Assembly: GCA_030272155.1 (NCBI GenBank)
Contig: CP126205.1
Span: 3,894,501 to 3,958,500 of the forward strand
DNA: 64,000 bases
Source of the DNA: Tetradesmus obliquus
Lineage: Eukaryota > Chlorophyta > Chlorophyceae > Sphaeropleales > Scenedesmaceae
Direction: 5' to 3'
Positions 6,939 through 64,000 of this stretch are shown here, piece by piece. Every line of letters starts with the position of its first letter. Position 1 is the first letter of the stretch. The translations under genes and the position numbers were made by a program. The notes beneath the pieces were generated by a model. It was given only the letters and a program-made list of their open reading frames with translations, had not been told where the DNA came from and did no database searches.

Positions 6939-9900
6939 CTGCAGCAGCAGCAGCAGCAGCAGCAGCAGCAGCAGCAGCAGCAGCAGCAGCAGCAAGGTTG
7001 AAGGTGTTTGCAACAGCGCGTCCCATTTGATTTAACTTCGTTTAATTTACTTTGATCTTCCAGCTTTCCTCTGACTCCTCCCTGCAGCAGCAGCAGCAGC
7101 AGCAGCAGCAGTAGTGGAGCAGGTCATGCATTATGTGTGTTTCAGCTTTCTCATTGGGCAAGGGACAGCGTTGTTGTCTATTTGTGTGAACAGGTGCTTG
7201 GTTTCAGGTTCACAGGCGGTCTGATGTTGTGGCAGACATGCTGCAAGCTCAGCTTAGCTGGTTTGCTGCACGTTCTGCGGCACCTCAGCGGCAGCATGCT
7301 GATGAGCAGCCTGATGCTGAGCAGCACCATATACTATTTGTTACTTTGTGGTCTTCAAACGAACATAACATCCAACATACCATGTCACATGCACCTGAAT
7401 TTGGCAGCAGCACGCTGATGGGCGGCCTGATGCTGAGCAGCAAAATGTGTGTTGCTTTGTGGCCTGTACATGAACACACCATTCAACATAACATAACGCT
7501 TAAACCTCACCTTGGCAGCAGCACGCTGATGGGCGGCCATATGCTGAGCAGCACCAGCGTGCCCCACATCATACTGATGCAGTACACCATGATCTCCCTG
7601 CAGCAGCAGCAACAGCAGAAGCAGCAGCAGCAGCAGCAGTAGAGCAAAGTCAGATCCTGTGTGCAATCTTTGCCACCACCAGCTGCCACATTTGTTGGCA
7701 GCAGAGAAGTTAGCAACATACCAGCCCCCACCCAGCCCCGCAGCAACTGTCATGGTGCCTGAGGCACACAAGATCACAAAACGTGCATACCAATCACGCA
7801 AACCTCAGCATTAGGAGTTCATTGGAATACGCACCAGTCGCCGTAGCGTCCCAGGCAGGCGTTGATGATGAAGTAAGCCACTCCAGATGCGAACCCAGCC
7901 ACCCACAGCAGGTAGGGCCAGGTCACCTCACAAGTGTCCTAAGCACTGATTCAGTAACGATCTTACGCCCCTGATCACAACGCAGCATTATTTGTGGTGC
8001 AACCGCACTAGTATACGCCAGACACAGCCGAAAGCAAGTGCTGATATATGAACACCCACCAGTCGCCGTAGCGCCCGAGGCAGGCGTTGATGATGAAGTA
8101 AGCCACTCCAGAGGCGAATCCAGCCACCCACAGCAGGTAGGGCCAGGTCACCTCCAGGGCGCTGAACAGCGCATCCCAGCGGCCGGGCATGCAGCCATCC
8201 GGGCCGCACTTTGCCTTGGCGGTGACAGCAAAGGTGATCTGTGAGGATGGTGGGGGTTTGAGGTGCAAGTGGCAGCACAGACACAGGTTATTAGGCGGGC
8301 CGTGGAAAGATTCAGACTTTGCGCTGTGTCTAGTGCCGCACGTGGCCCTTGCGGTGACTCGAGATTTGTCTTTGTATTGAAACCAAAGGCATTTCAAGGC
8401 TCTCCGATCCCAGCACTTGCATCTCAAATCCTTCACGGTCAAAACCTGTGAACCCAGACGATGTAAAAACCCCAAAACCGCACCTCGAAGGCAAAGAGCT
8501 TCTTGAAGAGCCAGTTTTCTGCCACCAGCACCTTCCATATGGCCTTGATGTGGTTGGGGCTGATCCACACCCACATCTGGCTGCCGCGCCACATCTCAAG
8601 GCTGCCGCCCTCCACGTGACGGTGCACCCACCACAGCATGATGCGGTTCATGAGGTAGAAGCCGCCAAACGCCTGCAGGAAAGCATGCATTTGCTTGAGC
8701 ATTATTGGATGGAAGTTTGGTTAGCGTTGCTGTAGGATGATAATAAAGCTATTGATGAGGTAGAAGCCACCAAACGCCTGCAGGAAAGCGCACAACCCAA
8801 CAGAGACAAGCATCAGCACATTGAAGATGAAAGGCAAGGTCGCCCACCACAGCATGATGCGGTTCATGATGTAGAAGCCGCCAAACGCCTGCAGGAAAGA
8901 GCACAACCAACACAGATAAGCAGCAGAAGATGGCCCATTAAAGCACTGACATGTCAAGGTGGCAGGTGTTGACTGTGCACACGCGGGCAAGCGGCAGTTG
9001 TGCAGGTGGCTTTTGTGCCGTGTCTAAGCTATGTAAGCAGTGACCTAAGCTGGACCCCAACTCACAGACTGTCCCTGAACCCTCACCAGTGTGAACTCCC
9101 ACATTGCAGGTGCCACAACCGGGCTGTAGCCGGTGTACAGGAATAGGATGGGCAGGTGCGTTTAGGTTCAAGCATGAACCCTGTGTAATAAAGTGCCTCC
9201 AAACCCTAAACCTTCACCAGTGTGAACTCCCACATTGCAGGTGCCACAACGGGGCTGTACCCCGTGTACAGGAATAGGATCAGCTAGCACCAATGTTCTA
9301 AGCTTAAAACCCTAAATCCTGTGTCATCAGCTTCCTCTATACCCTAAACCCTCACCAGTGTGAACTCCCACATTGCAGGTGCCACAACCGGGCTGTAACC
9401 GGTGTACAGGAATAGGATCAGCTAGCACCGATGTTCTAAGTTTCAACCCTAAACCCTGTGTCATCAGCTTCCTCTTTACCCTAAACCCTCACCAGTGTGA
9501 ACTCCCACATTGCAGGTGCCACAACCGGGCTGTAGCCAGTGTACAGGAATGGGATGGGCAGCAGCGCCAGCACCACTGTGCACACTGCCAGCCAGTGGTG
9601 GGCCAGGGCCTCAAAGAACAGCAGCGACTGGATGGTGCTCAGGCCTGGAACTGTGAGGGGGTTGGTGCGGGCGAGGATCTGCAGCAACAGCAGCAATGCA
9701 GCATCAGTGGCAGTAATCCGATCACGCAGCAGACAACCAAACGACACCTTGTAGGACACACCCAGCAGCAGCAGCAGCAGCAGCAATGACTTTGGACCAA
9801 GCATAAACCCACCTGCAGTGCTCCCATCGCCCAGCGCAGCCGCTGCGTCAGTGCCGACTGCAAGTCACTCGGCGCCATGCCAATCACATGCCTTTACAAC

Positions 9901-63026: not shown

Positions 63027-64000
63027 GTGTATCGTGGCAGGCAAGTTTCCAGCTGGCGCCAATGACAGCTGCTTGGGTGACAGCAACAGCAGCAGCAGCC
63101 GGGCGCTTCTATGTAGCAGCATGCATGTTGCCGCTTTGCCAAGCGATCCGCAGCTGCAGCTGGTGGTGGTGGGCTGGTTAACGGCAGCGACAGCAAGCTC
63201 AGCTTGACAGCGCTGCAAAACGCAGATGCTGCTGCAGCAGCAGCAGGGCCGGCAAGCTGAGAAGATTGTGGTGTGCGTTGCTGCTGGGAGGGGCCAGTGG
63301 GCCCTGCCTGGAGGACAGCAGCAGCAGCAGCAGCAGCAGCAGCACAAGCCGTATGCTGCATGAAGCAGCAGGCAAGCAACAGTGGGCGGGCCAGCCCAGG
63401 CTTTGAGCAGCTGCAGCTGGTGGTGGTGGGGCTGGTGGGGGGCGGCAGCGACAGCAAGCTGAGCTCGACTGCACTGCGGGAGGCAGATGCTGCTGCAGCA
63501 GGGCCAGACAGCTAGGTGCGTTGTGGCAGGCGAGTTGCCGGCTGGTGCCAATGGAAGCTGCTTTGGAGGCAGCAGCACCAGTTGGGTGGGCTGCCGGGCG
63601 GCCAGGCCATTAACAGCGGGCGGGCCAGCAGAGGCTTTGAGCAGCTGCAGCTGGTGGTGGTGGGGCTGGTTGGGGGCGGCAGCGACAGCAAGCTGAGCTC
63701 GACAGCACTGCGGGAGGCAGATGCGGCAGCAGCAGCAGCAGGGCCGGCAAGCTGAGAAGAATGTGGTGGCGGTGCTACTGGGAGGGGCCAGTGGGCTATG
63801 CATGGAGGACAGCAGCAGCAGCAGCAGCAGCACCAGCTGAATGCTGCATGAAGCAGCAGGCAAGCAACTGCGGCGCGCAAGCCGAGGCTTTGAGCAGCTG
63901 CAGCTGGTGGTGGTGGGCCTTGTTGGCGTCAGCAGCGACAGCAAGCTGAGCTCGACAGCGCTGCGGGAGGCAGATGCGGCGACAGCAGCAGGGCCAGACA
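62880..64000 (+). repeat. at least five-copy echo array of adenylyltransferase exon 5 end, running off the window
   Basis: The functional copy (GFEQLQLVVVGLVGGGSDSK then LSSTALREAD) ends at 63026. Further copies lie at about 63145-63250 (degenerate), 63385-63515, 63590-63755 and 63880-64000. Several keep a full open frame with the same end (GPDS or GPAS then stop). Confidence 0.95.

Follow-up and report, generated by a model that had tools for sequence, protein, structure and literature searches.

Introns of the green alga Tetradesmus obliquus (Scenedesmaceae) can contain tandem copies of the ends of their own flanking exons. We analyzed a window of 64,000 nucleotides from this species (assembly GCA_030272155.1, contig CP126205.1, positions 3,894,501 to 3,958,500 of the forward strand; window coordinates below count from its first letter), in which a sequence-only reading had described such exon-edge arrays in an ankyrin-glycosyltransferase (GT2) gene and several others. 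The window was compared with a genome sample of 20 10-kb stretches whose fixed positions in the same assembly (104.66 Mb, 17 contigs) were picked blind. Exon-edge copies are present both in the window and in this unselected sample, they straddle exon edges more often than a uniform null predicts, and their synonymous distance from the working exon is nearly constant among arrays while their amino-acid decay is variable. The surprising part is that untranslated copies resemble alleles.

Exon-edge arrays in the GT2 gene

Using Tandem Repeats Finder and self-BLAST, we located tandem units, many of ~105-145 bp, mainly at 7-17, 37-39 and 62-64 kb of the window. The GT2 gene lies on the minus strand, and its 14 hand-read exons join into a single open frame of 1064 amino acids with Pfam matches to ankyrin repeats and a cellulose-synthase/GT2 domain. 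Green-algal homologues span residues 420-960 with up to 72% identity, while no near-identical T. obliquus protein was found among the best 120 of 319 matches. Exon numbers below follow the sequence-only reading and correspond to a 17-exon list rather than to our 14-exon reading, unless the latter is named. The copies sit within existing introns, as the 14 exons join in frame without them, and 10 of the 13 introns pass our probe test for flanking exon-end copies (score of at least 36, single probes of 40 bp; here and in all counts below, introns flanked by a predicted exon shorter than 40 bp are left out).

All 11 GT2 edges for which copies had been claimed do carry them (3' ends of exons 4, 8, 9, 12, 13, 15 and 16; 5' ends of exons 6, 11, 12 and 14). 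Donor-side copies follow exon 4 (16607-16997) at 16506-16549, 16387-16436 and 16273-16323; exon 7 (14532-15178) at 14339-14406, where the copy of its 3' end is 90% identical with 5 synonymous to 2 nonsynonymous differences (5:2; ratios are given in this order throughout); and exon 8 (13839-14067) at 13683-13751 and 13496-13564, this exon also having an acceptor-side match of 41 bp located 120 bp upstream. Exon 9 (13123-13264) is followed by six copies between 12236 and 13053, exon 13 (9493-9678) by three at 9356-9418, 9218-9280 and 9087-9155, exon 15 (8060-8238) by one of 95 bp at 7835-7929 (4:0, with unrelated flanks), and exon 16 (7511-7597) by two at 7401-7442 and 7288-7329. On the acceptor side, exon 6 (15557-15647) has a copy at 15714-15770 (93%, 3:1), exon 14 (8484-8672) has copies at 8843-8888 (98%) and near 8752-8789, and the start of the last exon (6909-6971) recurs at 7052-7114 (92%, a GCA tract included). 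Exon 12 (9945-10204) is copied at both edges, with a donor-side copy at 9813-9887 and acceptor-side copies near 10264-10302, 10387-10440 and 10536-10577. The most regular series belongs to exon 11 (10821-10938), upstream of which six acceptor-side copies in 123-bp steps start at 11061 to 11676 and differ from the exon at 20:2. This array is in frame, and our gene finder took the whole of it (10821-11676) as one exon.

The window also contains long perfect CTG/CAG tracts of 18 to 33 units (6941-6994, 17775-17829 and 48608-48707). Several CTG tracts immediately precede GT2 acceptors, as if acting as the tract before the 3' splice site.

Arrays in other window genes

Arrays had been reported in at least six genes; we verified exon-edge arrays in four window genes, namely GT2 and the methyltransferase, protease and PPAT-like genes, the last three on the plus strand. 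In the methyltransferase gene, whose DOT1 match falls slightly under the Pfam cut-off, the expected copies of the ends of exons 4 and 5 are present. The end of exon 4 (near 37331-37388) recurs at 37604-37661, 37712-37769, ~37822-37879, 37936-38005 and 38050-38107, and exon 5 (38424-38535) has one acceptor-side copy at 38274-38322 and donor-side copies at 38592-38640, 38699-38747 and 38805-38853. The upstream copy claimed for the zinc exon of the protease-like gene likewise exists (29090-29194 versus 29217-29323, offset 127, 77%; HExxH recognized by eye), the gene finder having merged copy and exon into one. This gene belongs to a tandem pair of protease-like copies at 21586-23450 and 27898-29910, ~6.3 kb apart, with exon pieces 69-91% alike; a 319-amino-acid piece had no Pfam match. 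For exon 2 of the Lys/Glu-rich gene, no exon-edge copy was detected at the thresholds used, and the match found there lies just within the intron.

In the PPAT-like gene, the last exon (62808-63026) ends with the stop codon, and copies lie past it at 63150-63240, 63369-63515, 63590-63735 and 63857-64000, with three more matches beyond the window end. The differences in these copies are 29:12, with 8:0 over the 146 bp of the copy at 63590-63735. The gene has an NCBIfam match below cut-off (40.2 of 104 bits, E 3.5e-10), PDB and Pfam searches with the piece returned no match, and the two gene models disagree here, so that this interpretation is based on the frame and the family match. On that reading, the array appears to straddle the stop codon (the coding/3' border) and not a splice junction, and a splice junction would therefore not be required for array formation.

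That exon interiors are never copied, as had been stated, is not supported. Coding-exon repeats exist, such as Pro/Ser-rich tandem repeats inside a predicted exon at 23953-24176. Elsewhere in the window, the arms of a 51-bp inverted repeat (43466-43516 and 46159-46209, 98% alike) lie 2.7 kb apart.

Frequency and edge enrichment in the genome

Genes in the sampled stretches were predicted with a small gene finder of our own, with tuned penalties, in two first-pass models, one stricter and one looser; iterative retraining was abandoned after drift into CTG tracts. The finder recovered 11 of the 14 GT2 exons exactly, but this is not an independent test because GT2 splice sites were in the training data. 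Copies of a flanking exon edge occur in 25 of 108 sample introns with the stricter model and in 26 of 145 with the looser one, such that roughly one in five sampled T. obliquus introns carries extra exon-end copies. Boundary probes found copies in their own intron in 28 (donor) and 19 (acceptor) of 137 cases, whereas mismatched introns gave 5 and 0 of 137, and these controls stayed at 0-5 of 137-183 per probe over both models. Among the carrier genes, Pfam matches point to GCS2 (glutamate-cysteine ligase), a mannosyltransferase and an EF-Tu-type GTPase, the latter presumably Snu114-like. The arrays accompany longer introns, as proposed: in the window and sample together, they were found in 20 of 29 introns of 400-700 bp versus 1 of 39 below 250 bp.

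The description of the arrays as pervasive calls for caution, given that in the kinesin loci just 3 of 74 introns (22 merged kinesin stretches) have copies. Sampled loci also differ, from 4/4 introns at L045 to 0/12 at L046. The latter locus holds two large arrays of 279-bp and 345-bp units (14.2 and 5.5 copies; L046:16-6039) that were partly read as coding. In one kinesin gene (C2:7430665-7431399), model positions 260-289 are matched three additional times upstream of the exon that corresponds to positions 263-326, an acceptor-side array that is visible from the family search alone and was overlooked by the gene finder.

Counting arrays in introns of up to 1500 bp, with L046 set aside, we found 12 that straddle an exon edge and 3 purely intronic ones in the window (expected edge share 32%), 21 and 4 in the sample (~23% expected under blind duplication; 5 'other' arrays apart), and 2 and 1 in the kinesin loci. 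In the window and sample, edge arrays thus outnumber intronic ones by more than a uniform null predicts, although edge arrays should be detectable for longer (~1.6-fold, by reasoning), since one of their copies is constrained.

Copies were said to lie downstream of donors and upstream of acceptors, and in our probe test they do, with 22 of 118 probes passing on the expected side and 1 of 118 on the wrong side, compared with 6 of 118 from exon middles. This polarity is a matter of geometry. A duplication across a donor adds copies only downstream and one across an acceptor only upstream, and because any tandem duplication over one exon edge yields this result, it is not evidence of a directional process. 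The proposed seeding of decoy splice sites is supported. Among gapless copies (gapped ones were omitted here and in the copy-versus-copy, change-direction and frame-shift analyses below), GT is kept in 28 of 35 donor copies and AG in 14 of 17 acceptor copies, with 23 of 35 and 5 of 17, respectively, scoring at least as high as the real site; however, the mean donor score is 3.18, well below the 6.13 of real donors.

Substitution pattern of the copies

The mostly synonymous nature of the differences had been missed by the sequence-only reading, whose overall interpretation is otherwise partly supported by our results. Across 61 copies at 37 edges, copy and exon differ at 208:134, whereas we calculate that synonymous changes should account for 27% under random change and ~43% for a neutral copy beside a constrained exon. 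By identity, the ratio runs from 23:5 in copies of at least 94% through 50:17 and 79:46 to 56:66 at 80-85%. In the true frame the synonymous share is 64% (65% when every array counts once, 67% for the sample by itself) against 16% in each shifted frame; copies of L039 and L035 (2027) were omitted from this control, from the distance, dispersion, copy-versus-copy and spacer analyses, and from the first part of the change-direction analysis. Third-position mutation bias as the cause is disfavored by the frame-shift controls and by the near-even ratio in old copies, and the direction of third-position change is near balance (77 to commoner and 90 to less common codons). Only 21 of 3674 columns are gaps, and an in-frame stop occurs in 2 of 52 gapless copies.

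On a purely neutral account, edge-straddling segments are duplicated in tandem and then decay, with nothing else involved. This suits the copies of 80-85% identity and three kinesin copies (7:18), as well as young arrays and those with related spacers considered below. For most arrays it is already disfavored. In 36 arrays the dispersion is 0.99 for synonymous and 2.00 for nonsynonymous differences, with a rank correlation of 0.25, whereas simulated neutral copies gave 2.34, 2.69 and 0.51; neutrality further predicts a synonymous distance (dS) of 0.078 at the observed nonsynonymous distance (dN) of 0.039, while the observed dS is 0.203. We regard neutral duplication alone as quite improbable.

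Purifying selection would also produce mostly synonymous differences, if the copies were used as coding sequence in some transcripts through alternative splicing. The small number of gaps and stops, the often retained splice sites and the open frame of the array at GT2 exon 8 of the 14-exon reading (the array with 20:2) agree with this. On the other hand, donor-side copies mostly have no AG acceptor at their inner edge (exceptions are 8060-8238 and the whole-exon copies of L035), so that most copies, unlike mutually exclusive exon ends, have no splice sites needed to replace each other in frame, and the PPAT-like copies are located behind a stop codon. Simulated constant selection with exponential ages gave dispersions of 4.61 and 2.71 and a rank correlation of 0.62, far from the observed values, while a burst of copies of a single age is still allowed by the dispersion test. 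Altogether, we consider coding use of the copies unlikely.

A constant allelic distance with neutral decay, when simulated, came closest (1.11, 2.42 and 0.18). With an 80% identity cut-off included, the synonymous dispersion was 1.83 for neutral copies, 2.23 under selection and 1.01 for the allelic model. Extrapolated to a dN of 0, dS is 0.189 (0.149-0.223; 67 copies in 36 arrays), and sixteen arrays selected for a dN of no more than 0.02 have a pooled dS of 0.185 with a dispersion of 1.11. Two copies within one intron differ from each other by similar amounts (dS ~0.19, dN 0.055; 15 arrays). This suggests that the untranslated copies differ from the working exon as two functional alleles would, and that parts of the gene's other versions are retained within introns.

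Unit structure and spacers

The arrays have periods of 86-388 bp (median ~128) and a copy-spacer-copy layout with sharp ends ~0-22 bp from the exon boundary (rows pre-filtered to 25 bp). Exon sequence makes up 0.45 of the unit, tighter than uniform in ~999 of 1000 simulations if spacers are at least 50 bp. A rule that exon part and spacer have the same length is weakly supported (Spearman 0.15, or 0.36 excluding spacers above 160 bp).

This layout would be expected from an edge-anchored insertion, in which a new spacer enters and the flanking 35-125 bp of exon edge become duplicated on either side of it, much as target sites do but over a far greater length; the tight exon share and the 21 edge versus 4 internal arrays of the sample fit as well. 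Yet spacers of at least 30 bp had no match at other loci when searched against 363 kb, and one spacer-plus-copy query against the genome returned itself and CTG-tract-like matches only, with no dispersed element. Nor did the spacer give a clear signal of being derived from the exon end by reverse complementation or another transform, with strong likeness to the exon end itself only where further copies lie inside the spacer. As insertion also leaves the synonymous pattern unexplained, we think it rather unlikely.

We compared the spacers of 31 arrays (30-160 bp) with the intron beyond the last copy. The two are related in 8 arrays, whose differences of 32:26 are what neutral duplication would give, as are the units of L044, which are 96% alike. 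In the other 23 arrays no relation was detectable, and these have 79:26, departing from the neutral 43% (p 2e-11). In some arrays, exon parts that are 94-100% alike stand beside unrelated spacers, which cannot be derived from decaying tandem duplication alone.

Allele-like differences next to unrelated spacers could also come from the assembly, if two divergent haplotypes had been stitched at exons, and a sister alga has been reported as likely diploid, with alternate haplotypes (PMC7955037). Against such an artefact stand the multi-copy arrays with graded decay, the length of most spacers (~40-140 bp, shorter than whole introns), the large contigs with no N bases in the window or the 20 stretches, and the decayed array with 122-bp spacing at the same exon of a paralogue described below. 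We therefore view an assembly origin as very unlikely.

Paralogues and strain context

Nucleotide searches of the genome with four genes revealed no closer second locus as a source of the copies, and paralogues were rejected as that source. Two regions and the PPAT-like gene gave in-place copies only, and one GT2 region matched itself and CTG-tract-like sequence. A GT2 paralogue on C6 is 90% identical to window exon 8 of the 14-exon reading and has, at a distance of 122 bp from the same edge of this exon, a decayed copy (with a stop and a one-base shift, by eye), while the window copies are 91-97% identical to their own exon; this comparison covers one edge. Five further matches in the paralogue repeat the end of exon 7 of the 14-exon reading plus donor (C6:316541-317647), an edge at which the window gene passes no probe. 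The differences between the two genes imply that arrays turn over, though one edge was hit in both.

The OEZ85 and OEZ86 protein sets, which we take as two strains, share a GT2-family protein at 98% identity. This and the diploidy reported for the sister alga are compatible with an allelic origin, and neither is proof of it.

Proposed origin of the arrays

We consider the chances about even that the arrays arise by recurrent tandem duplication at exon edges in a species of very high diversity, where other alleles supply or renew the exon part and the intron part decays. Short stretches straddling a coding-exon edge would be tandemly duplicated again and again, and copies in the intron or past the stop could persist because splicing at the exon-side site would leave the mRNA unharmed. 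The exon part may be copied at birth from a different allele through repair or template switching, as homologues would share exons and not introns; alternatively, gene conversion from functional exons may renew it. For the intron part there would be no such donor, and it would decay. In this way introns could grow in repeat-unit steps and come to contain untranslated fragments of other alleles. A more specific and only tentative version is that introns form an allele archive: breaks within introns would be repaired from exons, the sole alignable sequence, and failed repairs would leave behind the exon end and intron head of a second allele.

Several observations weigh against an allelic origin. 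The allelic source, the route of repair and a very high species diversity (synonymous ~0.17-0.19) are all inferred. The parameters of the allele simulation were chosen after the means were known, and noise in dN raises the regression intercept somewhat, although the dispersion test is independent of that intercept. The kinesin copies look neutral. As a group, the 23 arrays with 'unrelated' spacers do show a slight likeness to the intron beyond (p 0.023), and the copies of L048 are identical to the real exon, yet their outer flank is unrelated. With the C6 paralogue as outgroup, the real exon rather than the copy has the larger share of derived differences for 5 of 6 copies of exon 8 (14-exon reading), a skew not expected under a symmetric allele model, albeit at one exon. 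Intron-middle probes pass in 17 of 114 cases, nearly as often as donors or acceptors, so that part of the signal is general tandem duplication; some of these probes fall within edge arrays.

How introns lengthen and how decoy splice sites are tolerated are open questions, and exon-edge duplication is common enough here for statistics. If the allelic reading is true, the introns of a single genome could be read as a record of population coding diversity (dS ~0.19), and introns would have a new way to grow, through repair in which exons act as recombination anchors. Annotation is also at risk, as the gene finder read at least two window arrays as single exons.

Comparison with known systems

No description of this pattern was found among the listed titles and abstract openings of Creative Commons-licensed PMC papers. 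As in the tandem duplication of proto-splice sites proposed for Drosophila (PMC2891723), duplicated exonic sequence lands in introns. Unlike in that model, which requires an AG|GY within the stretch of exon being duplicated, just 1 of 16 listed donor rows begins in this way, with AG|GT inside the exon; two more start at the exon's own acceptor, and no new intron lies between the GT2 copies. The arrays therefore do not follow the AGGT-based intron gain that had been suggested for them.

A closer parallel is the known tandem duplication across intron-exon boundaries, in which the splice signals are copied along, and the unit in our 12 window and 21 sample edge arrays likewise spans one exon-intron boundary in tandem. 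That process made a new intron in one gene, whereas here existing introns grow in many genes, at both edges and often by several copies. Introner elements represent a process that places related sequence into many introns, and the T. obliquus arrays resemble them in this respect, but have no dispersed family (spacers searched against 363 kb, one array against the genome). In minisatellites and in concerted evolution by gene conversion, tandem units expand, contract and share variants. By contrast, the arrays described here keep an allele-like exon part but often not an allele-like spacer, even among the copies of a single array.

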